From Alkalispirochaeta americana (GTDB taxonomy: Bacteria; Spirochaetota; Spirochaetia; DSM-27196; Alkalispirochaetaceae): 64,000 nt of DNA. Both the position numbers and the translations under genes were made by a program. A model generated the notes under the pieces. It made no database searches, was not told the origin of the DNA, and saw nothing but the letters and a program-made list of their open reading frames with translations. Shown here one piece after another: positions 5,517-59,023 of this stretch; position 1 is the first letter of the stretch, and the number at the start of each line of letters is the position of its first letter. Where the stretch lies: positions 186,001-250,000 of the forward strand of contig NZ_FTMS01000001.1 of NCBI RefSeq assembly GCF_900156105.1, read 5' to 3'.

Positions 5517-6740
5517 CTATTTCAGGGCTGCCTGGATTCGTTCCATGGCCCGCTCGACCTTTTCCCGATCGTTAAAGGCGCTGATGCGAATATAGCCTTC
5601 TCCGGCCGCTCCGAAACCTGCTCCCGGGGTTGTGACCACACCGGCTTTCTCCAGGAGTAGATGGAACAGTTCCCACGAGGGGCGCTGAGCATCCACCCAG
5701 ACATAGGGCGCGTTTTTTCCGCCGTAGCTGTTGAATCCTGCCTGGTCCAGCCCCTGACGGATGATCCGGGCGTTTTCCAGGTAGTAGTCTGTGAGGGATC
5801 GGACCTCTTCCGTGCCCCGGGGGGTGTAGATCGCTCCGGCAGCGCGCTGTATGGGGTAGGAGGCTCCGTTAAACTTGGTGGTCTGGCGGCGGGCCCAGAG
5901 ATCCCGCACGGCCACGGGGGTGCCGTTGCTTGTCCAGGCCTGAACCGTGGGGGGGATGACGGTATAGGCACAGCGGAGGCCCGTGAAACCTGCCGTTTTG
6001 GAGAAGCTGCGAAACTCCACGGCGCAGGTTTCGGCTCCGGGTATCTCAAAGATCGAGTGAGGCAGATCGGGGTCCCTGATGAAGGAGACGTAGGCGGCAT
6101 CAAAGAGGATGAGGGCTTGGTGTTTCCGGGCGTATTCCACGTATGCAGCGAGTTGTTCCCGCGTGGCGGTTGCTCCCGTGGGGTTGTTGGGGAAGCAGAG
6201 ATAGATCAGGTCCACCTCTTCTTTGGGCGGAGGTGGTACAAAACCGTTTTCTTTCGTGCCTGCCAGGTAGGTGAGTCCCTGGTAGCGACCGTTCTCGAAT
6301 ACTCCTGTGCGTCCCGCCATAACGTTGGTATCGACGTAGACCGGATAGACCGGGTCCGGCACGGCCACGCGCAGGTCAGGCGAAAAAAGCTCCTGGATAT
6401 TTCCGGTGTCGCATTTGGATCCGTCGCTCACAAAGACGTCGTCGGGAGAGATCGCTACCCCCCTGCTCTGGAAGTCCTCACGGGCGATCGCCTCCCGAAG
6501 AAAATCGTAGCCCTGTTCCGGTCCGTATCCGCGAAAGGTGTCGGGTGATGCCATCTCGTCTATGGCTGTGTGGAGTGCCTCCAGGGTAGCGGCTGGCAGT
6601 GGACGAGTTACATCGCCGATTCCGAGCTTGATTATGTCCTGTTCCGGGTGTGCCTCCTGGTGGGCCCGGATGCTTTTGGCTATATCCACAAAGAGGTAGG
6701 ATGCGGCGAGTTTCTGATAGTGTTCGTTAATTTGTATCAT
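5517..6740 (-). CDS. dapL: LL-diaminopimelate aminotransferase
   Basis: The 407-residue PLP enzyme converts tetrahydrodipicolinate directly to LL-diaminopimelate, bypassing the succinylase or acetylase branches of lysine/DAP synthesis. The start at 6740 ([11 protein letters not shown]) matches the family N-terminus; an upstream extension in the same frame has no family character. The PLP lysine lies in [33 protein letters not shown] and [15 protein letters not shown] are diagnostic blocks for DapL over other class I/II aminotransferases. Two 13-bp direct repeats (6767-6792) lie in the 5' leader. DapL in a spirochaete fits DAP production for lysine; the cell wall amino acid itself may be ornithine in this phylum. 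Confidence 0.93.
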
Positions 6741-7418: not shown

Positions 7419-8677
7419 GGGGATTCCTCTTCTTCTTCCCGTGAGGTTTTCATCCAGAGGCCTCGCTGGATCGATCCGTTTCCGAATCGGTCGCGAAGTT
7501 GGCGGATTGTGGGGTCCAGGGCGTCTTCCCGGGAATCCCGGTCCCGGGTTTCCCGGGGAAAGAGGTCCTGCTGAAGGGGTTCGGTCCAGGAGTTCCTGCG
7601 GGCTTCTCCGGCGATTCCCACCCCCAGAAGCCGCAGGGGTTTTCCCTCCCGTCGTTTCTCCAGGAGTTGCCAGGCTACGGTGGCAAGTTTCCGGGTTCCC
7701 TCGGGGGGATCGGTCAGGGTGCGGGAGGCGGAGTGCGTCTCGAAGGAGGGGAAACGGAGCTTTACCTGCACTGTGGGGCCGCGCCAGTCTTCCTGAAGAG
7801 AGCGCTGGATCACCTCTTCGGCCATTGCCAGGAGATGCTGCTTCAGGAGCACCGGATCAGCGATGTCCTCAGGAAAGGTGCGTTCTGCCGAGATGCTGTG
7901 TCGCTCGTGGAGGCCTTCGTGGATGCCCGGGTCCTGGCCACGGCAGAGCAGGTAGAGGAACTCTCCTGTAGAAGCTCCAAAATGGCCCCGGAGGAACTCT
8001 GCCCGCTGTTCTCTCAGGGCCACAACGGTATTGATCCCCAGCTGTTCCAGCCGGCGCCGGGTGACCGCGCCCAGGCCCCAGAGATCTTTCAGCTTCAGGC
8101 TCGCCACAAAGCGGGCTTCTTCTCCCGGAAAGACGCGGTAGAGCCCGTCGGGCTTGTCCACATCGCTCGCCAGTTTTGCAATGAGTCGTGAGGGGCCAAT
8201 GCCGACGGAGATGGTCAGTCCTGTGGCGGTGCGGATCTCCTCCTTCAGCCTCCGGGCGATCTTCTCGGGAGGGCCCAGGAGTCGTTCCGTGCCGGTCATC
8301 TCCAGGAAGGCTTCGTCGATGGAGACGATTTGTACCCGGGGAGAATAGTTTTCGAAGCGGCTGGTGATCTCCCGGGAGATCTGGCGGTATCGCTCCATTC
8401 TGCTGGCTGCCACGATCGCCTGGGGGCATCGTTTCAGGGCCTGTTGCATGGGCATGGCGCTGTGGATGCCGAAGCGTCGGGCCTCGTAGCTGCAGGCGGC
8501 CACCACACCCCGCTTGTTTCTGCCGCCCACCAGAAGGGGCTTTCCCCGGAACGCGGGGTTGTCCAACTGCTCCACCGAGGCGAAGAAGGCATCCATATCG
8601 ACATGAAAGAAGAGTTTTTCTCGGGGGGGCTGGCCCTCGGCGGGGGTGGTGTCGCTACTCCAGGGTCGCTCGCTCAT
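7415..8677 (-). CDS. dinB: DNA polymerase IV (Y-family, error-prone)
   Basis: The 420-residue translesion polymerase has the Y-family catalytic blocks FFHVDMDAFFASVEQ (first metal Asp) and VSIDEAFLEMTGTERLLG (SIDE motif). The helix-hairpin-helix region is near LWGLGAVTRRRLEQLGI, and a little-finger domain follows to about residue 350. The last 45 residues are polar and may hold a sliding-clamp binding motif: QQDLFP fits the QLxLF pattern. The start at 8677 overlaps the 3' end of the upstream membrane-protein gene by 23 bases, so the two are translationally linked on the minus strand. The stop lies in the CTAG at 7415-7418 shared with the convergent GAF gene. Confidence 0.93.
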   Translation of the reverse strand: MSERPWSSDTTPAEGQPPREKLFFHVDMDAFFASVEQLDNPAFRGKPLLVGGRNKRGVVAACSYEARRFGIHSAMPMQQALKRCPQAIVAASRMERYRQISREITSRFENYSPRVQIVSIDEAFLEMTGTERLLGPPEKIARRLKEEIRTATGLTISVGIGPSRLIAKLASDVDKPDGLYRVFPGEEARFVASLKLKDLWGLGAVTRRRLEQLGINTVVALREQRAEFLRGHFGASTGEFLYLLCRGQDPGIHEGLHERHSISAERTFPEDIADPVLLKQHLLAMAEEVIQRSLQEDWRGPTVQVKLRFPSFETHSASRTLTDPPEGTRKLATVAWQLLEKRREGKPLRLLGVGIAGEARRNSWTEPLQQDLFPRETRDRDSREDALDPTIRQLRDRFGNGSIQRGLWMKTSREEEEESP

Positions 8678-10763
8678 AAAGGGTCCATTTCCGGGTTATC
8701 CGGTCCCGGTTGATCAGGTTCCCGGTGCCGGTACTGCCTGCGGTACTCGTGCCGCTTATGCTGCGGGAGTCCGGGGAAAGATAAAAGGAATCCTCCAGAA
8801 TCGACGCAGGAAGGGAGAAGCTGCTTGTTGCTGTGGTGGTGATTGTCACCGGCAGGGTATCGGCGCGGAATACCAGCGTTCCCCGGGTTCGCTGGGGAGG
8901 AAGTGGGCCGGTTTGCACGGAGAAATGGGCGTGACGACTGCCGACAGGTTCCTTCATGGGATGATCCGAGGCATAGAGCTGTATCGGCTGGTTTGCTTCA
9001 AAGGATATGTCCAGGGTTTCGGCCGATTCCTGGAACTCCACGGACCAGTGGAGGGAGTGGCGGTCCAGGAGACGGGATGTCTCTGTGTGCAGTTGGAGCG
9101 GCGGTGCAGGCCCGGAGAATAGATCCTCCTGACAAGGGATCTCTTTGCATCGGATCGGCTCCTCTCCAGCAACAAGGATCGTTACCTCCGAGGAGATCCT
9201 CCTGTTCCCGGAGGTGATGCTACGATGCCCCGTCAGAGAGAGCTCTCCATCGGGATGGCCAGGTCCGGAAAGCTCCTGCCCCAGGGAGAACTCTTCGGTC
9301 ACCCTGAGGGGCAGGGGCAGATCCTTCTGGAAATGCGTGATCATTGTCGCCGCTGTAAGGGCGAGGCCCACCGTGGCGGTCATGGTCAGAAGCGGTACCA
9401 GAGGAATCCGGGAGGCGATCGCGTCAAGGCGGAAGAACATGAGAAGCGCTGGCAGAAGAATCGCCGCTGTGAGAGCTTCCCGGTAGAGGGGCGGCGTGAG
9501 GAGCGCGGTGATCATGGGGAGGTCTGCTGCGGGGGTCAGGACGGCGATCAGGTAGACCAGGGGGGTAAGGGCAAAAATGAGGGTGACCATCTTGATCCAG
9601 GCCCGGTGGCCCAGGCTGAAGAGGACACCAAAAAAGAAACTTACCGTGAAATAGGCTCCCATCACCAGGCTGGTCAGTCCCGAAGCGATTGCTCCCACCA
9701 GGAGAAGGAGCACGGCTGTGCCGGAATAGACCGCCGTGGCACGGCGAAGGCGATGTCGCAGGGTGGTGGCCATGATCCCCAGGGCGGTACAGACCGCCGA
9801 AATTTTGCCTGCCACCAGAATTGTTGGTGGCGGAGGGTGGGGGAAGAGTCTCAGGATGGCACGGATTGCCAGGTTTGCAGCCACGAGACTCCCCAGAATC
9901 ACCAGGAGGCTGACAAAAATCGCCGGCATGTTATGTCCCATGGACCTGAGATAATGGAGTGTCCGGCGGGGAAAGCTCACGGAGTAGAGCAGCAGCACCA
10001 GGGCAAGTCCCACGAGGATTCGCACCAGGGTGAATTCGTCGATGATCACGGGACGGGGCAGAGGAAGGATCAGGTAGTTGATGTCCTGTTGCCGGAAGGC
10101 TTCCCGGGAGCTCTGGAGATGGTCGAGCAGGGGAGGAATTGTCCGGGAGAGATCCCGGGGAGTTTCCAGAAAGAGTCGTGCTGCCGGAACTCCCTCCCGG
10201 AGGGCGTTGTCGAGGGGGGGATCGGCCAGGCCGTAGCCGAGGCGGGCTGCGTTCAGCTGGGCTGTGTTGAGTCCGGAGAAATCAGCTGCCGTGATCGCCT
10301 GTACGAGCCAAAGGGGGGCTGCCCCGCCCGGAACGGCTACGCGCCACTCCGTGGAAGGGCCCGGAGCAAGGAAGATGCGAGGAATATCGGGGGCGACCTG
10401 GGGCAGCCCTGCGGCGATCCGTCCGCCGTCGCCCGCCTTGTGACGAGGGGCTGTCAGGAGCAGGGCGAGACGGGAATCGGCCAGATGCGAGAGGTGCAGC
10501 AGAAGCTCTTCGTCACCGGGATGGGCCACCACTACCAGCAACAGGGGGTCGTCTCCCCGGGAGATCAGGTAGTCCTGGTGGAAGCTGGGGCCTCCCGTTT
10601 GATCGGGCAGAAGGACCTCCTGAACCTCTGCCTCGGGAAAAATATGGTGCAACCGGGATGCCTCATCCCGGGCTGCCCCGGTGGCAGTCCCCGGGAGTGC
10701 CCCGGAGGGGTGGGAAAAAGCGAGAAGGATTGATACACTCAGAAAGATTCGGTTACGGCTCAT
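8655..10763 (-). CDS. Large polytopic membrane protein with exported N- and C-terminal domains
   Basis: The 702-residue protein starts with a signal-anchor or signal peptide (MSRNRIFLSVSILLAF). An extracytoplasmic domain of about 200 residues follows, then eight or so membrane segments between about residues 240 and 480, and a beta-rich C-terminal domain of about 200 residues. The first domain contains LLVVVAHPGDEEL and a DSRLALLLTAP stretch. This recalls the core strands of M28-type peptidases that carry multiple membrane helices (the Fxna/GAA1 style), but the full metal-ligand set is not visible, so that link is only a suggestion. It overlaps dinB by 23 bases. It is divergent from the nitroreductase gene. 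Confidence 0.7.
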   Translation of the reverse strand: MSRNRIFLSVSILLAFSHPSGALPGTATGAARDEASRLHHIFPEAEVQEVLLPDQTGGPSFHQDYLISRGDDPLLLVVVAHPGDEELLLHLSHLADSRLALLLTAPRHKAGDGGRIAAGLPQVAPDIPRIFLAPGPSTEWRVAVPGGAAPLWLVQAITAADFSGLNTAQLNAARLGYGLADPPLDNALREGVPAARLFLETPRDLSRTIPPLLDHLQSSREAFRQQDINYLILPLPRPVIIDEFTLVRILVGLALVLLLYSVSFPRRTLHYLRSMGHNMPAIFVSLLVILGSLVAANLAIRAILRLFPHPPPPTILVAGKISAVCTALGIMATTLRHRLRRATAVYSGTAVLLLLVGAIASGLTSLVMGAYFTVSFFFGVLFSLGHRAWIKMVTLIFALTPLVYLIAVLTPAADLPMITALLTPPLYREALTAAILLPALLMFFRLDAIASRIPLVPLLTMTATVGLALTAATMITHFQKDLPLPLRVTEEFSLGQELSGPGHPDGELSLTGHRSITSGNRRISSEVTILVAGEEPIRCKEIPCQEDLFSGPAPPLQLHTETSRLLDRHSLHWSVEFQESAETLDISFEANQPIQLYASDHPMKEPVGSRHAHFSVQTGPLPPQRTRGTLVFRADTLPVTITTTATSSFSLPASILEDSFYLSPDSRSISGTSTAGSTGTGNLINRDRITRKWTLYERATLE

Positions 10764-47889: not shown

Positions 47890-49238
<1,349 letters not shown>

Positions 49239-49428: not shown

Positions 49429-49719
49429 TCAAACTATCATCGGTCCTTCCATGTCCAGGGACGGTTTTGCGCCGATGTGCTCGACCTTGCGTTTGTAGTT
49501 TGATCCGAGATGATAATAGCGGAGACTGTCCTGTTCCCGGTCTATGATCTTCTCGAGGTTATTTTTTAGCCGCATCCACTGGGCGGGGTCAAGGATGCAC
49601 TCGAATACGGAGTACTGCACGCGTTGTCCGTAGTTCTGGCATTCCTTGGCAATTTTACGCAATCTCGCAGCTCCGCCGGGTGAGGTCACCGCTACATCGT
49701 AACTGACAAGCACCATCAT
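49429..49719 (-). CDS. cas2: CRISPR-associated endoribonuclease Cas2
   Basis: The 96-residue protein has the ferredoxin-like Cas2 fold with MMVLVSYDVA at the start (the conserved Asp), GQRVQYSVFECIL and DSLRYYHLG. With Cas1 it forms the integration complex that adds spacers. I chose the start at 49719 behind CTGGAGATAAC; a second ATG follows at once. The cas1 stop lies 4 bases upstream. The C-terminal tail (KRKVEHIGAKP) is typical of type I-C Cas2. Confidence 0.95.
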   Translation of the reverse strand: MMVLVSYDVAVTSPGGAARLRKIAKECQNYGQRVQYSVFECILDPAQWMRLKNNLEKIIDREQDSLRYYHLGSNYKRKVEHIGAKPSLDMEGPMIV

Positions 49720-49723
49720 GTCG

Positions 49724-50755
49724 TTATCTCCAGAAAAAAGGTGGATATCCGTCGATATCGCCCCGAATATACCGGGCGAGTAGATTTGCCTGAACAAAGA
49801 ACAGTAGGCCGATGGGAATAGATTCATCGATGTACGGATGAAACACTTCTTTTTGTTTTCTGGTCTGGTATTCGGTCAGAAGCGTCTTTCGCGTATCATC
49901 GTCCATTACGACAGCACCGTTTTCCGCGATCTTAAACCCGGCCTTGCCGATCTGACGCCGGTTGATCAATGAAAGAACGAGACGATCCGCGATTACCGGT
50001 CGAAACTCTTCCATCAGATCGAGCGCCAGTCCTGGGCGTCCCGGCCGGTCCCGGTGCAGAAACCCCACCGACGGGTCAAGGCCAACGGTTTCCAAAGCAG
50101 ATCTGACATCATGAGCAAGTAGCGTATATGTGAACGAGAGCAAGGCGTTCACTTCGTCCAGCGGGGGGCGACGGTTACGTTCCCGGAATACGAACGTCTC
50201 TTTCTGGTCGATGATTAAATGATTGAATACGCTAAAGTAATGTGCGGCGGCGATTCCTTCGATACCGCGGATCTCGTCGGTTGTTGTCGCCTTATCGATC
50301 TGGCGAAAAAAAGCGGCCATCCTGGAAGATGCTGCTTTCAGCGCGGTTCCATCCACTTTTTCCTTATGGTCACGAAGGGTGCGGTTTACGGTGACTCTGC
50401 TATTCGCAATCTTAGCCGATACAACATTTGCTGCTATCTCTCGTGTCGCCATCGGATCGTCCGCTTTCCGGTACTGTTCCCGGCGCAAGAGAACATTTCC
50501 GCTTATCGGCCCCCGTACAGAGGCGAGAAACCGTCCGTATTCCGTCAGGAAAGAGACACTGACATCCTTTTCGGCACAGAAACCCAGAAGAAAGGGCGAA
50601 CAGAGAACGTTGCCAAAGCAAACCAGACCGCCGAGACCGTGTATTGGCAGTTGTAGAACCTTCTTTGTCGCCTGTTCCACCACGAGGGTTTCGCCCTCCT
50701 TGCGGAGGTAGCTACCTTGGGTGGATACGTAGAGAGTGTTGAGCAGCTTTCTCAA
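49724..50755 (-). CDS. cas1: CRISPR-associated integrase Cas1
   Basis: The 343-residue protein starts at a TTG (50755) within TTGA, overlapping the cas4 TGA and behind AAAGGAGGAAG. An N-terminal beta domain (LLNTLYVSTQGSYLRKEG) leads to the helical catalytic domain. Metal-site blocks are EGIAAAHYFSVFN (Glu), NRRPPLDEVNALLSFTYTLL, GLDPSVGFLHRDRPGRPGLALDLMEEFRPVIAD (His and Asp). It is the integrase for new spacers. It is a type I-C Cas1 by context and length. Confidence 0.97.
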   Translation of the reverse strand: MRKLLNTLYVSTQGSYLRKEGETLVVEQATKKVLQLPIHGLGGLVCFGNVLCSPFLLGFCAEKDVSVSFLTEYGRFLASVRGPISGNVLLRREQYRKADDPMATREIAANVVSAKIANSRVTVNRTLRDHKEKVDGTALKAASSRMAAFFRQIDKATTTDEIRGIEGIAAAHYFSVFNHLIIDQKETFVFRERNRRPPLDEVNALLSFTYTLLAHDVRSALETVGLDPSVGFLHRDRPGRPGLALDLMEEFRPVIADRLVLSLINRRQIGKAGFKIAENGAVVMDDDTRKTLLTEYQTRKQKEVFHPYIDESIPIGLLFFVQANLLARYIRGDIDGYPPFFWR

Positions 50756-51411
50756 GTTTCTTCCTCCTTTAGTCCCAGGCGAAGTTGGTTGGCTACATAC
50801 CGGGACACGCGTTTACCTCCACCTGATGTAGCCCGGGGCATACAGAGCTCATAGAGAGAGCAACGGTCACACTTCTGTTTCCTGTACTCAGCTTGTGGGG
50901 TTTCCGTGGACAGGAACAGCTGCTGCACGAGCCGAATCACGGTCTGCGTCCGGTCCCGCAGTTCCTGATCAAAGGCAACGGTGGAACGACGATGTTCCTG
51001 CAGATAGTAGAACTGCCCTTCCGGAATACCGGTACCGAACATCTCTTCAAGACACAGGGCCTGGGCACAAAGCTGTACGTTGTCCACATCGGCAGGTTTT
51101 GTCTTTCCCCGTTTGAACTCAACCGGGCGGATCATCGCGTACTTACCGGTTCCGGATTTCTCGAACTCCACAAGATCAGCTTTTCCGATCAGCCCGTGTT
51201 CCAGCGATCGAACCGCCATACCGTACTCGGCGCGCCGGGCACGCCGGGACTCATGGTGTTCCTTGTCTACACGTTCGTGGAGAATGCGCCCTTCAGCCGT
51301 GTAGAGGTTCTCCCGCCAGAGCTGCTCGATGTGTATGAGCGCAACCTGCCGCTCGCAATACATCGCATGCTGCAGCGCGGAGATCGGAATCAGTTCGTCT
51401 TCGGTGAACAC
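50752..51411 (-). CDS. cas4: CRISPR-associated exonuclease Cas4
   Basis: The 219-residue RecB-family nuclease trims prespacers and helps define the PAM during acquisition. The nuclease motifs are GKADLVEFEK and RPVEFKRGK; iron-sulphur cysteines are in YCERQ and in the C-terminal CDRCSLYELC. The start is a GTG at 51411, since an in-frame TAA lies just upstream. The 26-base gap to the Fic-derived gene contains a near-perfect duplication of AAATGGGTNCTAAAA. It overlaps cas1 by 4 bases. Confidence 0.95.
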   Translation of the reverse strand: MFTEDELIPISALQHAMYCERQVALIHIEQLWRENLYTAEGRILHERVDKEHHESRRARRAEYGMAVRSLEHGLIGKADLVEFEKSGTGKYAMIRPVEFKRGKTKPADVDNVQLCAQALCLEEMFGTGIPEGQFYYLQEHRRSTVAFDQELRDRTQTVIRLVQQLFLSTETPQAEYRKQKCDRCSLYELCMPRATSGGGKRVSRYVANQLRLGLKEEET

Positions 51412-51437
51412 TTTTTAGCACCCATTTTAGTACCCAT

Positions 51438-52067
51438 TTACCAGTTGACGGTTTTCCTCCAGCGGGCGTTGTGTCCCCGTCCGGTTGATTGGATTCGCTT
51501 GTCGTCACGCAGTCGTTTCAGAATACGCCGGACCATCTCCAGGCTCACCTCGAGACATCTGTCACGGATCCCGGAAATGCTGAACGATTGGTTTTTTTTC
51601 GCGATCGCCTGCAGGATCAGTTCCGTCTTGTTTCCTCGCCCGTTTCCAACGTCGGACAGCCGTTGTTCATACTCCTTGTACGCACCGGCATCCCAGGTAT
51701 CCCCCCGCACGAGACGATGCAGATCCAGCACTGTCTTCTCAGTTATCGGGATCGCGTCACCGTCGTCGTGAATCCGCGACAAGGCCTGACGGTATTCCCG
51801 CACCTCTTCCTCGTCACGATCACGCAGATGCGGGGGCCCGAAAACAACCGTGTTGATCCGGGATTGATCAATTTCCACGCCTTCTATCCGGTTAGAAGAG
51901 ACGGTGCTCTCCACCAGAGCGTGCTGCCAGAGTGCCTGGAGTTTCTGCGACGCCCGTCGAGTAAGCATTTCCTGCCTGCCTTTGAACTCACCGAGATCGG
52001 CCAGATACCACCGAACGGTTGCCGGCATAGATGAAAACTCTCCCGGAAAACGCCGCAGAGTCGTCAC
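51438..52067 (-). CDS. Fic-derived protein lacking the catalytic core, with C-terminal winged helix
   Basis: The 209-residue protein starts at GTG 52067 behind AAAGGAG with 9-base spacing. The N-terminal half matches the Fic_N helical region: LVESTVSSNRIEGVEID, where S-N-R-I-E-G fits the inhibitory-helix pattern (S/T)xxxE(G/N), then EEVREYRQALSRI and TEKTVLDLHRLVRGDT. Where full Fic proteins continue into HPFxxGNGR, this one passes from DAGAYKEYEQRL directly to a winged-helix-like segment (ILQAIAKKNQSFSISGIRDRCLEVSLEMVRRILKRLRDD). No AMPylation site is present. The position between cas7 and cas4 is not part of standard type I-C operons. It may be a regulator using the winged helix, or a remnant that was kept. 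Confidence 0.75.
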   Translation of the reverse strand: MTTLRRFPGEFSSMPATVRWYLADLGEFKGRQEMLTRRASQKLQALWQHALVESTVSSNRIEGVEIDQSRINTVVFGPPHLRDRDEEEVREYRQALSRIHDDGDAIPITEKTVLDLHRLVRGDTWDAGAYKEYEQRLSDVGNGRGNKTELILQAIAKKNQSFSISGIRDRCLEVSLEMVRRILKRLRDDKRIQSTGRGHNARWRKTVNW

Positions 52068-52088
52068 AGCGAGAAACTCCTTTAACTG

Positions 52089-52970
52089 TTACAGCATCTC
52101 CGTCATCTGCACAGTATCCGGCAGTTTTTCGTGATGCACAACGATCTGGTAATCGGAAAACGCTCGTGAGGGACCGTTCTCGCTACTTGCCCTTCGGACT
52201 TCGATTGTCTCAAACAGTTTGTGTGCCGGAGCGTTTCCGAGCTTGGTGGCGTGTTTGAAGACGAAGAGCTTCCGGGCGGCCATTTTGCCCCGGGCAGCAG
52301 CGTGATCGTGCTCGAACATATTGATCAGAGCTTCCCAGAAGAGCGCCAGATCTTCCTCTGAGAATCCGGTCTGTCCCGCCAGGTGAGCCGAGATGTATCC
52401 CTCGGCACGATAGAGGCCGTACGGAATGATATTCTTTTTACCCATGGTACGGTTATCGCCCTGTTGACTTTCCGCTTCCCGCTCCGTAGCAACAGCCATC
52501 CGAGTAATCGATATCTCCCGGGGAATCACCGGATCGATACTGCGGGCGAAATTCATCTGGGCCGGGCCTCGCACTTGCCCGCAGTTCACTTTCAGACTCA
52601 TCACCGCGCCAAATGTACGAACATCGAAGAAGTTTGCGCACATCCACTCACGCGCTTTTTCTACCTCTTCGCCGGAGCCTTTGCGTTTGCCGTCAGTGGT
52701 CTTGCTGGCACCGATCGCTTTGTGAGCACGCTCGTGCGCGTGGACCAGGATCGCTTTTTCCCGTATATAGATCTCGTACGGGGATGCTCCTTGCTTCACT
52801 ATTTCCACATAGTTGCGAACCTTGCGTTTAAGACATACGTCGGTCACGATTCCGTAATTGGTTTCCGGATCAACCCGAGGCAAGTTGCCTGCGTCAGGAT
52901 CTCCGTTGGGATTACCGTTCTCAACGTCAAACAGATATACAAACTCGTAGCGATTGTTCAGTTCCGTCAT
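52089..52970 (-). CDS. cas7: Type I-C Cascade backbone subunit Cas7 (Csd2)
   Basis: The 293-residue RAMP protein coats the crRNA in multiple copies. The N-terminus [27 protein letters not shown] is the Csd2 signature. [32 protein letters not shown] and [18 protein letters not shown] are also diagnostic. GGAGGAA lies 8 bases before the ATG at 52970. It follows cas8c by 38 bases and precedes the Fic-derived gene by 21. Confidence 0.96.
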
Positions 52971-53008: not shown

Positions 53009-54766
53009 TTACTCACCGTCAGTGGTGATGTCGACTTTTTCCGATTTTGTGAAGAACGCTTTTCGCTGGTGGTAATAGCCCAAGGCAAACATTCCCTGAT
53101 CCTCAAGGCTGAGATGAGATGGAAAACGATCGATCCCATCTACTATTTCCTGAATAAGTTTTTCTTTGAACACCTTTGGTCCCTGCTCCAGCTTTGCCAG
53201 GTGGTGTTGATTCAATCTGAGCAGTTGAGAAAAAACCACTCCCGGTGTCGCCGAGGCGGCGCTGTAGAAGCGATCCTTGATCGTTGCATTTGTTCCGGGG
53301 ATCGCTTCCGCCTGTGCTTTTTCCAGTACCGCAAAAAGCCGTCCCAGGCGGTACGCCACGTTGGTGGCATGCTCGTTTAACACTTTTGTCACCTCCATCG
53401 GTTTTGATTGTATTCGTGCGTTTCTTGTCAGCACCGCTTTGATCAGTGCCGCCCGATAGTATCCGATTACGCCATCCGCCCTTATCCGATCAATTAGCGC
53501 CGCGAGGATGTATGAGGGGTAAGCCGCACCGGTGAGGACCGATCGGGTCATTGCTCCCGCGAGGGTCGGTTTGATGTTCTCACTCTTGTGCTGTGGGGCC
53601 GTCTCGATGAGCAGATGCCAGATCCCGGGAAATTCAAGCTCATTGTCGTATTCGCGGACGATCTCCAAGTCCCGGAAGTGCTGTCCCAGAACTTTGTCCA
53701 GCTCAGCTACCGTCCCGGAGTGCCAGAATCGCACCGCCAGACGGGATGCATTTGGGGCGAGGCCGAGGATATGGAAGCGGACCGACTCGTCGATATCTTC
53801 CGGCTGCTTGCCGCTTCGGATCGACTGCAAATAGGTTCCCACAGATGCTGCCGTTTCTGCTCCTGACAGATTGGTCTCACGCGGATCCATCACGAATCCA
53901 AGAAAATTCTCGACGGGAGTTGTTCGTTCCGCCCAGAAGACTGTGGTCGCATCACCGATCTGGATCTTCTGCCGTGACTCAAAGCGAAGCAGGTGGTTAA
54001 GTGCGGTGGTGTAGGCAAAGGCGGCGTCCGTTCCTACTGGCGCGTTGTAGCTTTGCTCCTTCCCGTACGACGTAAATGTATCCAGATTGAACGATACGAT
54101 CGCCGCGCCCATTGTCTGAGCGTCCCGGACACCTTTGATCTTGTTATGAAGTCGCGCGACCGTCGCCCTTTTCCCGGTGATCAGACAGGTCTGCTCCTGC
54201 AACGGTTCGTCGCCATCGCCACGATCGTTTGCTCCGGACGCCCAGGCGTTTATCCAGGTGTCCCGTACGAGAGGCCGCTCGTGAATGTAGCGCTGCTCGT
54301 CTACCAGTCGGAAGACAAGGTTCGTGCCGACGATCTCTAACCAGCTTTCAAGTGACGGTGCGTGTGCAGGGACCCATGCGTCGAGAAAGCGCAATGTAGC
54401 TCGCATTCCTTCATCGTCGATGCCGTCACCGATCTCGTGGTTCCATGCCCGGAAAGCCTCAAATGTTTTCTGGCTTCGCTCAGGTTTGCCCTTATCGTCT
54501 GCGCCGAGCACGTATCCGGTATTATCCCACAGGAAGTTTGCTGCGATGTTCACCGATTTTACGACTGCTTCAGGCACCATCATTGAGACGGGACGTGGCG
54601 TCTTCCGGGTTGTATCACGGATATCCTGTATCTGAACCAGATTTCCGTCATTATCGAGAACGAGTGCCCAGGAGATATTCTGCGGCGAGTATCCGGGTGG
54701 CGCAATGCCTGATCCGGGGTCGCCGTTTAAACGCTGGTAGTACGAGTACAACTCCTGCAAAATCAT
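53009..54766 (-). CDS. cas8c: Type I-C Cascade large subunit Cas8c (Csd1)
   Basis: The 585-residue protein recognises the PAM and recruits Cas3. Diagnostic features are [17 protein letters not shown] at the start, [56 protein letters not shown] and the C-terminal [19 protein letters not shown] with the closing YYHQRKAFF motif. In type I-C an internal start often yields a small Cas11-like subunit from the C-terminal part; a candidate cannot be fixed here by eye. AGGAGGTG precedes the ATG, and the start overlaps the cas5 stop by 4 bases. Confidence 0.95.
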
Positions 54767-55482
54767 GACAGCACCTCCTCGCTTTCAAACGGCGGGACGT
54801 GGAGGACGCCGTTATCCAGGCGAGCACGGAAAAACCGCGGCGTCATCTCGTTCTCAAAATCTATATCGTGCAACATCCAGCCCAGTTCGCGGGTCGCATC
54901 GCTGCCGGTCAACAGTGTTTGTGGTATTTCATCCTTATCGATCCACGAGAAATCCACGGGGAACTCTCGCGTCCCGAAGTACGGCTGGTGAAAGCACTGA
55001 CCCTGCTTTGCGCGACGGCTGAAGATCTCCAGATGTTTGGCGGGTTTGTCGTCGCTATGCTCGACCTCGCCCATCTCGTCCGGAGTCTTCGCTCGATCGG
55101 TCAGACGAAACGATGCTTCGATTACATAATCCACGTCTTTGAGAACGAGGGAGGCCCGCTGCTGTCGGTCCTCCTCGATAAATACCTCGACTGGTGATGT
55201 TCCGTCGCTCATCGCTCGCCGGACCGTGCCAATTGGTACCTTCACCCCGGCCGAGCCGGAAACACCCAGCTCGTTTCGTCGGATGTTGGTAAACCGGATT
55301 GGCGCGAGTACATGGATTCGTTCGACAACCCACCGGATCGCTGGTTTCCAGTAGATTGCCTCCAGGATTCCCCGCGCCGCAGATGGTGTCATTACGTCGT
55401 AACTCACCCGTTCCACTTTCATTTCGGGACGAGTAAAGCACGCATACCGTCCGCTGACACGGAGGGCTATACCGTATGCCAT
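54763..55482 (-). CDS. cas5: Type I-C pre-crRNA nuclease Cas5 (Cas5d/Csd5)
   Basis: The 239-residue RAMP protein processes pre-crRNA in type I-C, which has no Cas6, and caps the 5' handle. The start at 55482 ([30 protein letters not shown]) lies 5 bases after AAAGGAGGTG; the frame extends 10 codons upstream without a good site. Characteristic blocks are [26 protein letters not shown] and the C-terminal [18 protein letters not shown]. The catalytic set in Cas5d (Tyr, Lys, His) would include residues near KPAIRW and the conserved Tyr. It is translationally coupled to cas8c. Confidence 0.95.
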
Positions 55483-55498
55483 CCCTTCACCTCCTTTC

Positions 55499-57754
55499 TT
55501 ACCCCATGACAATTAGGTTTTCCGCCAAGTAAAACGACGGTACCGTCGGATTAAGTCCGAGACGATCGTCGTACGCTTCTTTCATGCCAAAGTCGGTCAT
55601 TACATACTGCTCCTCCCTGATTCGCTGTACGTATCCTGCCTGTAATAGCGTCGCCACCGCACGTGGTCTCAGTGAGACGGTGTACGGCTGAAGTCGACGG
55701 AGGATCGCCCCGGGGTAATCTGTTTTTTCCAGCGCCCGGCAAAGATTGCGGGCATGTTTATCGTTTGGTACGATGATCCCGATCTGCTCGTCAGCGATCA
55801 GGCGATACTTCCCTGATACAGTCTTGAAGGGGAAATCACCGCGAGTAGTACCAGTCCGGAAGTCGTCGAGGATTCGCTCCTTGTCGAGGCCTCCACTCTC
55901 ATCTTTGATCCAGTAGAGTTCCCGGAAGAACTCCCGCACCGTGCTGGATCGCAGAATTTTCGACTCACGCCCCCGGAGCACGAGTTCCGCGATTTGCGCG
56001 TTCTGCCGGAAGTATCCTGCTGGTAAGCCACCTTCAGGACGAAAGACATGAACTTTTCCGCGACCAGCCAGTTTACCCTCCCGATTACAACGCCCCGCCG
56101 CCTGCACGATTGAATCGATACCTGCAAGTGCCCGGTAAACGACGGGGAAATCCAGATCCACGCCTGCCTCCACCAGCTGGGTGCTGACAACGCGGCATGG
56201 TTTACGCTCTGCCAGGCAATCACGTATTTCGTCCAGAACGGCTCGACGGTGGGTCGGACACATCAGGGCGGAAAGGTGGAAGACATCGGCGCTTTCCGCA
56301 TCGAGCAGTTCCACCAGTTTGCGTGCGTGGCCGCGGGTGTTGACGATGCAGAGAACCTGTTCTTCCGTTGCGAGGCGGCTGGCAAGTTCTTTATCCTGTA
56401 CTTCACCGATCATCGTGGCATCCACCCGATCGAACACTCGTTCCAGTTCTTCCGGGTTGCTGACTATTTCCCGTACCTGTGGAAGTCCTCCTTGGAAGGA
56501 CTCGTTCGCGATTAACGCAGGCTGTGTGGCCGTGCAGAGAACGATAGTGGATCGGTATGTCTCGGATAATTCGCGAATCACTTCTATTGTTGGTTTCAGA
56601 AACGGCACGGGCAACATCTGAGCTTCATCCAGAATAACCACGCTGCGCGCCACATTATGCAATCGCCTCGTTCTGGATGACCGGTTGGAGAAGAAGGACT
56701 CGAAGAACTGTACGTTGGTCGTTACTATGATCGGGGGATCCCAGTTCTCGCACGCCAAACGGCGTCGTTCTTCCCGGTCTTCATCGACATCATCGCGATC
56801 CGGCACCAGGTTGGAATGGTGCTCCAGCACTACCTCGTCGCCGAAAACTGACCGGAATATCTGTGCTGTCTGTTCGATGATCGACGTATAGGGAATTACG
56901 TAAATTACCCGGCGCAAGTCATGCTGAACAGCGTGATCCAGGGCGAATGCGAGTGACGACAATGTCTTGCCTCCCCCGGTAGGTACCGAAAGCGAACGTA
57001 ATCCGGGAGCTTCCCGCGCAGCGCACCGGCACTCTGCCAGGATCTGTTGTCGCTGCCGGTTTACTACTGTCTCGGGAGCGTTTCCGACGAGCTTTATCAG
57101 GTGTTCATCGAGTTTCTTTTTCAGCATAATGATCGTAGGATACGTCCCGCGGGCATTGTGTCGGTCCGGATCCACGAAGGCTTCCGTATCGAGAAAATCC
57201 GCATCCACTAGGCATGAGAAAACCATGCGGGTAAAGAACGCTGCCTGAAATCCGAGTCTGCGTTGGTCAGGATTCGGTCCGGTGAACGGAACCGGTTCTA
57301 TCTCCGGCAGTTCGTCCGCGAGGAGTCCCGGACTCGGCTCACTTCGGTTAAGCCGACGCGACAAACATGACTCGTCGTCGCCGGAAGCGCCGTCGGGTAT
57401 TCCCGTATGGTGTCCCGCGACGCAGTACGCCAGGAGTTTGCCGGCACCGGGCGGTTGCACGATTTTTTCGATTGCGTACTTGGCTCCCGGCGTTGAATGA
57501 TCCGCGCGCTGTGCGTTTTCTCCTCGTATCAGGGCCCGGATTCTGCGCTGGTACTGTGAGAGACACTTCCCGTCGTCGTGAAGCAGACCGGCAACAACAC
57601 CCCAGTTGCGACAACCGAAAAGGTCTGCGAAGATGCCGGCTTGTTTGGCCACACCGTGCAGGTGTTCCTCCAGTGGCTGCAGTGCACCGTCATTACGACT
57701 GTGCCCGACGAGGAATGACGGATCGTCTATCCGCTTGTCTAAGGTTATCTCCAT
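55499..57754 (-). CDS. cas3: CRISPR-associated helicase/nuclease Cas3
   Basis: The 751-residue effector has an N-terminal HD nuclease ([41 protein letters not shown]) and a superfamily 2 helicase. Walker A is [19 protein letters not shown], the DEAH-like box is [10 protein letters not shown], and the last motifs are [10 protein letters not shown] and [11 protein letters not shown]. It unwinds and degrades targets marked by Cascade. It is the first cas gene, 16 bases before cas5, with an interrupted palindrome upstream. The SD (AAGAGAG) is weaker than those of the following genes. Confidence 0.96.
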
Positions 57755-57876: not shown

Positions 57877-58950
57877 CTACACAAACGTTTCCTTTTCTCT
57901 CTTGCTCTTGCTCTCGCGGTAAACCCCCAATCCCCGCTCAAAATCCCGCCGATGCTCCTCCCGGAGCCACGAGGGCTCGATTACTTCAACATCGGGACCC
58001 CAACCCCTGATCCAGGGATACATCTCCCGCGGTTCCGCTACGGCACCGCTCCAAATCAATCCGCCATCCTGCTGCGGTTCCAATGTCTGGCTGCCGTGCC
58101 ACAGCGTTTCCGCGACGCGGTCCGCGACTGCCGGTCCGAAGCGAAGGACAACCTGCACGGGTGGGGCATCCCCAGCCCAGATACCCCATGCGTGCATCAG
58201 CCGGGAGGGAACCTTCTCCACGGGGATCGCTTTCAGGAGGCCCTCGTCCGGCTCCAGCAGGGTTATCTTGCGGATACGTTCTATCTTGAGCGTCCGGAAG
58301 CGGCCGGACGATGTGTGGTGCAGCGGGATGCCAGGTTTGCCGTCGGTCTGGTTGTTGGAGTCAAGGTCCCACGCCAGCAGGTGAACTGAACGTCCCTCAT
58401 GGTGTGGTTCCAGCGTAAGCGGAACGAGTCGATAGATACGATCCTCGCCGTGATTCCGGGAATAGTGCGTTACTTCTATCGGTCGGTATTCCGTGATCGC
58501 GATACCCAGTTGTTCCATGATGGCACGGTATCGCACCCCCGGTTGATGTCCCGAGCCGGAGGGGAAGCGCTCGATCTCCTCTGCTGTTTCCCGAATTCGG
58601 TCAGCAAGACGGATACTGACTCGACCCTGGGCGTCCGCCAGCTTGCGGAGTGCCGCTGAAGCGTGTGGAAAGGGAAATTTCATGACCCGCGCGAAGAGGC
58701 GAGCCGCCAGATGCAGGGCCTCCAGTTCAAACATTGTCAATCTGATCGTGGTGAGATATCCCTTTTTGTCCAGAAACAGGCGGCCGGAATCGGATTCCTG
58801 CAGGGGAAGCATTGACGTTAGCGACGTGACATCCCGGCCGATAGTACTGCGGTGGACTCCCAGCCGGCCGGCAATTTCCGAACGGGACAAGCCATCGGGG
58901 TGATCCAGCAGAAGGCGTTCAATCTGTTGCATCCGGTCAGATTTAGCCAC
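57877..58950 (-). CDS. WYL-domain transcriptional regulator of the CRISPR island
   Basis: The 357-residue protein has an N-terminal helix-turn-helix (DRMQQIERLLLDHPDGLSRSEIAGRLGVHRSTIGRDV), a central helical region and a WYL domain (ITEYRPIEVTHYSRNHGEDRIYRLVPLTLEPHHEGRSVHLLAWDLDSN). A C-terminal WCX extension follows (PPVQVVLRFGPAVADRV). I use the GTG at 58950 (VAKSDRMQQ) because it suits the family N-terminus; longer (ATG 59010) and shorter (ATG 58932) starts are possible and the ribosome site is poor in all. WYL proteins regulate some CRISPR and other defence loci, and it is next to the cas operon on the same strand. Confidence 0.85.
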   Translation of the reverse strand: MAKSDRMQQIERLLLDHPDGLSRSEIAGRLGVHRSTIGRDVTSLTSMLPLQESDSGRLFLDKKGYLTTIRLTMFELEALHLAARLFARVMKFPFPHASAALRKLADAQGRVSIRLADRIRETAEEIERFPSGSGHQPGVRYRAIMEQLGIAITEYRPIEVTHYSRNHGEDRIYRLVPLTLEPHHEGRSVHLLAWDLDSNNQTDGKPGIPLHHTSSGRFRTLKIERIRKITLLEPDEGLLKAIPVEKVPSRLMHAWGIWAGDAPPVQVVLRFGPAVADRVAETLWHGSQTLEPQQDGGLIWSGAVAEPREMYPWIRGWGPDVEVIEPSWLREEHRRDFERGLGVYRESKSKREKETFV

Positions 58951-59023
58951 CTCTATAGTTATACAATGAATTTTCGCTAAAATGGGAATGAATGTTCCGC
59001 TCATCGTCACGAAGGGGGGATGA

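Follow-up and report, generated by a model that had tools for sequence, protein, structure and literature searches.

A gene between cas7 and cas4 in the type I-C CRISPR operon of Alkalispirochaeta americana is clearly derived from a full Fic protein, whose catalytic core was lost through one slippage or recombination deletion between direct repeats, with no gradual refinement. It is probable that a SoFic-like Fic entered the operon, was disarmed by this one deletion and persists as an inert passenger, in which case one mutation neutralized a gene of the suicide type inside the CRISPR operon while the downstream adaptation genes stayed unbroken. The Fic gene alone is a curiosity of one genome. 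The more interesting lead is the junction where it lies, at which classical toxin–antitoxin pairs recur in the I-C operons of Spirochaetota, a pattern relevant to whether, in type I systems, immunity by CRISPR is physically tied to programmed dormancy.

The window, that is the whole stretch of 64,000 nucleotides analyzed here, holds a complete type I-C operon in the order cas3–cas5c–cas8c–cas7–[ORF]–cas4–cas1–cas2. Its main genes score above curated cut-offs (Csd2 411 bits, Csd1 571, Cas5c 191, Cas1c 514 and Cas4 119.5), and its parts are as follows.

57877..59010, minus strand: transcriptional regulator of the WYL/HTH type, upstream of cas3; other I-C operons of Spirochaetota also have one alongside
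55499..57754, minus strand: cas3, curated profile match
54763..55512, minus strand: cas5c, curated profile match
53009..54766, minus strand: cas8c (Csd1), curated profile match
52089..52970, minus strand: cas7 (Csd2), curated profile match
50752..51411, minus strand: cas4, curated profile match
49724..50755, minus strand: cas1 (Cas1c), curated profile match
49429..49719, minus strand: cas2, profile match
47890..49238, strand not given: CRISPR array of 21 repeats with a 65–66-bp period, downstream of cas2

Within the array, at 48500–48600, two adjacent spacers look identical, which would be a duplicated repeat–spacer unit, and the translation contains a repeated peptide.

An earlier note on this DNA had described an intact 630-bp frame between cas7 and cas4, running in the same direction with its own AAAGGAG site, and this was confirmed on the sequence, including the gaps of 21 bp on the cas7 side and 26 bp on the cas4 side. 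The following features were assigned to it.

51438..52067, minus strand: core-less Fic ORF of 209 aa, GTG start and TAA stop
52077..52083, minus strand: AAAGGAG ribosome-binding site, 9 nt before the GTG
51684..52067, minus strand: retained N-terminal Fic region, residues 1–128, 58–61% identical to full-length Fic relatives
51879..51896, minus strand: SNRIEG, residues 58–63, which matches the (S/T)xxxE(G/N) inhibitory motif of class II and aligns with intact relatives
51672..51683, minus strand: deletion junction GCGTACAAGGAG, encoding AYKE (residues 129–132), placed by comparison with intact relatives
51453..51638, minus strand: C-terminal winged helix, about residues 144–205, from the AlphaFold model and alignment with intact relatives

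The ORF is regarded as a real coding frame because its synonymous codon use (0.102) resembles that of the neighboring cas genes (0.05–0.12), the other two forward frames being negative. The gap between this gene and cas4 (51412–51437) is filled by an imperfect 13-bp tandem repeat (ATGGGTACTAAAA / TGGGTGCTAAAAA, minus strand).

Fic ancestry rests on three agreeing matches: about 60% identity to full-length Fic proteins, a hit to the PADLOC SoFic profile and a hit to a solved Fic structure. The nearest relatives in the genome scan are all full-length (about 347–358 aa, with HPFRDGNGR) and are 58–61% identical over residues 1–132; their C-termini are 36–46% identical to residues 129–208, and the two parts are collinear. 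The SoFic profile (PDLC03963) gives 32.9 bits, covering only positions 35–141 of 361, compared with 109 bits over positions 36–286 for an intact relative, which PADLOC thus scores as SoFic; the 209-aa protein is not a SoFic member, its match falling short of most of the profile. The closest solved structure is PDB entry 8uqu (E 1.5e-33). The descent from a full Fic enzyme proposed in the earlier note is thus borne out, and so is the loss of the core: PF02661 (Fic), on which the full-length relatives score 60–66 bits in Pfam, has no match in the 209-aa protein, and the HPFx(D/E)GNGR catalytic loop is absent, falling inside the deleted 140 codons. The profile search that the note had recommended recovers Fic_N only below threshold (15.4 versus a cut-off of 26.7 bits). 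The (S/T)xxxE(G/N) motif in the retained N-terminal region (SNRIEG, residues 58–63, within SSNRIEG, residues 57–63) and homology along the whole retained sequence place the protein with class II Fics, and the inhibitory-type motif and winged-helix C-terminus reported earlier are both present.

Comparison with the intact relatives locates the deletion precisely. AYKE stands at residue 129 in the 209-aa protein and in all seven intact relatives compared; in each of the seven a second copy, [AG][CY][KQ]E, follows at residue 269, 140 codons after the first. The 209-aa protein has a single AYKE and then continues with the sequence that in the relatives comes after the second copy. The gene therefore equals an intact relative from which exactly 140 codons (420 bp) have been taken out, with the join at the short direct repeat GCNTACAAGGAG (AYKE). 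In the DNA of the relatives both deletion ends carry GCNTACAAGGAR-like repeats, one copy of which, GCGTACAAGGAG, is left in the A. americana gene. The lengths agree, since 209 + 140 = 349 aa is the length of the Fic family, and the deletion is in frame because both AYKE repeats share one reading frame. The earlier note had suggested that only the regulatory and DNA-binding portions of the protein were left; the outcome is as described, with the core gone and the ends kept, but one 140-codon deletion suffices to produce it. Other members of the same family are independently broken in other ways: one (L019, 8001–8508) has an out-of-frame internal deletion, another (L203) has internal stops, and a copy on contig C47 of G308 (L211) is split into two short frames.

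Structure models were obtained with AlphaFold. The 209-aa protein was modeled with a mean pLDDT of 55.5, residues 1–84 lying mostly at 32–48 and the C-terminal winged helix at about 80–88. For the intact relative L017, with a comparably shallow alignment, mean pLDDT was 80 and the model has a Fic fold, whose best structural match was 8uqu (TM-score 0.92 on target length). Of the comparison with full Fic proteins that the earlier note had called for, the winged helix comes out well, whereas the N-terminal bundle is modeled with confidence only in the presence of the core; in these models the helices of the N-terminus, that of SNRIEG among them, seem to need the missing core. The only matches of the 209-aa model, to winged-helix repressor-like chains, had E > 0.01 and were not considered meaningful beyond the C-terminus.

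Signs of pseudogene decay were sought as frameshifts or stops, changes at conserved sites and branch lengths, and none gave a signal; the frame is open. In a leave-one-out comparison with 16 intact relatives, the retained region of the protein shows one change among 33 invariant sites, and the root-to-tip distance of the protein, 0.69, is inside the range of the intact relatives (0.58–1.08). The retained parts thus change no more rapidly than their counterparts in intact relatives, although a recent deletion would give the same picture: the test measures mostly pre-deletion evolution and so cannot separate a gene that has been kept from one that broke recently. A second copy of the core-less gene was found in none of the genomes, phages, viral contigs and plasmids searched; phages and viral contigs gave no match, plasmids gave distant Fic proteins only, and none of the same-genus genomes has it. 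The earlier note had named absence from other I-C loci together with a pseudogene-like substitution pattern as grounds for rejecting its reading; the absence is observed and the substitution pattern is not.

The intact relatives lie in a particular kind of neighborhood. Two Fic genes (L012 and L014) stand directly before hsdR, one (L013) adjoins the genes for DarT and a macro-domain protein (DarTG), and one (L017:204-9137) sits between PLD/SNF2 helicase and PglX/type IIG methylase genes, separated from one neighbor by 7 bp and overlapping the other by 4 bp. As the relatives adjoin type I restriction, PLD/SNF2 and PglX-like, and DarTG genes, the family is one that accompanies defense operons. 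A further Fic gene (L016) adjoins an AAA helicase resembling PADLOC MkoC, and the L017 gene set may be a DISARM- or BREX-like variant in which a Fic gene is embedded. This usual place in defense operons had escaped the earlier note, as had the recurrent toxin–antitoxin genes of the junction described below.

Sofic is reported to mediate anti-phage abortive infection by AMPylation, to dimerize through its alpha1 helices and to have a C-terminal domain that regulates the AMPylase domain (PMC12249575). Like SoFic and other class II AMPylases (PDB entries 3eqx and 3zcn), the intact relatives combine a Fic fold, an N-terminal inhibitory-type helix, HPFxDGNGR and a C-terminal winged helix; the 209-aa protein differs in lacking the whole catalytic core. 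The SoFic equivalog is remote from this family, L017 scoring 41 against a cut-off of 550 bits. The Bordetella bronchiseptica Fic in 8uqu is about 42% identical to L017 and has the same N- and C-terminal regions; unlike the 209-aa protein, it is full-length with HPFPDGNGR intact.

The course of events that we consider probable begins with an autoinhibited SoFic-like Fic gene of class II, full-length at about 349 aa, which would have entered a CRISPR operon in place of a restriction operon, between the interference genes cas3-5-8-7 and the adaptation genes cas4-1-2 and been co-transcribed as an abortive-infection companion. Deletion between the in-frame repeats then removed the catalytic core, and the 209-aa product would be unable to AMPylate, probably with only its winged helix folding stably. 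The intact leftover frame probably serves mainly to keep the operon non-polar for cas4–cas1–cas2, the remnant being a passenger at a junction where spirochetes repeatedly carry toxin–antitoxin modules. The intermediate state is postulated, as no intact Fic was seen in any of the cas operons surveyed. The lack of relaxed constraint in the retained parts, the native codon usage and the intact frame weigh against a passenger and are compatible with a kept function.

About 115 I-C operons in three phyla were surveyed (about 40 from Spirochaetota, 60 from Bacillota and 20 from the phylum of L019), and none of the others contains a Fic gene, so that the search for the same gene suggested in the earlier note yields no conserved accessory gene. 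One operon of the same-class set (L093) is identical to the operon of Treponema saccharophilum, which places the set, and with it the window, in Spirochaetota. An insert was defined as at least 300 bp at a junction, and cas7|cas4 was compared with cas3|cas5, cas8|cas7, cas4|cas1 and cas1|cas2. The comparison omits cas5|cas8; 326-bp gaps seen there in four operons (L048, L049, L084 and L086) look like alignment artifacts, with an identical value, at the cas8 start, and were not counted. Among Spirochaetota, 12 of 39 operons have a cas7|cas4 insert, against 2 of 154 at the four other junctions (Fisher p about 7e-8, uncorrected for phylogeny). Operons with inserts come from at least eight families, and the inserts are all co-directional with the operon. 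One of 18 operons from the phylum of L019 has an insert. Besides the Fic gene, the following occupants were recorded in Spirochaetota.

L078: MNT+HepT (Pfam)
L086 and L095: DUF4160+DUF2442 (Pfam)
L097 and L105: addiction-module antitoxin and PIN (Pfam)
L103: addiction-module antitoxin and ParE (Pfam)
L104: HicB/HicA, HicB sub-threshold (Pfam)
L083, L084 and L101: unclassified or weak (Pfam)
L108: no clear gene

Judged by these domain matches, the inserts are mostly toxin–antitoxin pairs. Makarova et al. (2012) proposed that immunity and toxins are coupled, but stated that typical antitoxins are not among the genes of immunity loci (PMC3506569); the Spirochaetota operons with predicted two-gene pairs of the typical kind are counter-examples to that statement. 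This proposal, the present junction and CreTA have in common that toxin-type genes occur inside or next to cas operons; CreTA is described as pairing an RNA toxin with an RNA antitoxin that the effector guides (PMC10097628). The literature yielded nothing specific on Fic in cas operons or on toxin–antitoxin genes between cas7 and cas4.

The excess at one junction, the uniform orientation, the spread over at least eight families and the set of occupants, with DUF4160+DUF2442 and the antitoxin–PIN pair each appearing twice, would also be expected if the cas7|cas4 boundary of spirochete I-C operons were a selected site for guard modules that back up or stabilize the operon, the Fic gene being one disarmed occupant. 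We regard such selection as possible but hold it with reserve, since toxin–antitoxin genes are common and mobile, and tolerance of insertion at the boundary between two modules would be enough. The Bacillota sample, moreover, has no insert in 58 operons; there cas7 and cas4 overlap.

Adoption by the operon as a regulator, as the earlier note had it, seems doubtful. The winged helix would bind DNA within the operon or close by and adjust expression of cas4–cas1–cas2 or of the whole operon, with the Fic N-terminus as a dimerization arm. Consistent with this are the ribosome-binding site and intact frame, the unaccelerated evolution and native codon usage, the confidently modeled winged helix and the retention of the segment aligned with the Sofic alpha1 dimerization helix (PMC12249575). 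However, the comparative data lend it no support: the gene occurs in one genome, being absent from other I-C operons and from the same genus, and it is the product of a single mutational event. Furthermore, its N-terminus is poorly modeled without the core, a WYL regulator is already present at the operon, and the reported target of the C-terminal domain in Sofic is the AMPylase domain. Still less probable is a combination of these two readings, in which a standing guard site triggers dormancy upon loss or failure of CRISPR and a disarmed Fic guard has kept its winged-helix and inhibitory parts as a regulator.

Action in trans on another Fic is very unlikely, whether through the SxxxEG helix as a VbhA-like antitoxin or through a heterodimer that poisons a full-length Fic. 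In the class I toxin–antitoxin system VbhT–VbhA, the antitoxin VbhA, like the 209-aa protein, has an SxxxE(G/N) helix without a core, and SNRIEG is kept here; however, the similarity to VbhA at that helix is insignificant (PF18495, 11.1 versus a cut-off of 25.9 bits, E 0.42, with 0.014 for a relative), and no cognate toxin is adjacent. The one intact Fic of the host genome (G000:C38 = L222:1174-2247, 358 aa) is a potential partner, but it is a canonical SoFic-type protein with Fic_N and SoFic-like_C on another contig, has its own inhibitory-type motif SSAIEN, and is only distant kin of the present family. The gene for this protein overlaps the end of an upstream ORF that looks HsdM-like by eye (no Pfam match), and a VapBC-like pair lies downstream. 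An assembly error or minority allele masking a full Fic gene is scarcely credible, for although the genome is a draft in 65 contigs and the deletion lies between short repeats, a repeat of 8–12 bp is far below usual assembly k-mers and reads, and the repeats are merged into one copy in perfect frame.

Returning to the surveyed operons, some further genes were noted. At the cas8|cas7 junction of another spirochete I-C operon (L089, oriented 8881–9616) there is a UPF0175+DUF3368 (VapBC-like) pair. An ORF of 297 aa with HEAT repeats lies between cas7 and cas4 in L193 (oriented 7507–8400), in the genome that also has the broken Fic L019; its C-terminus is possibly nuclease-like, with no Pfam match there. 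Finally, the operon of L104, which carries HicBA at cas7|cas4, has an ORF that appears GIY-YIG-like by eye between cas3 and cas5 (oriented 5899–6186).
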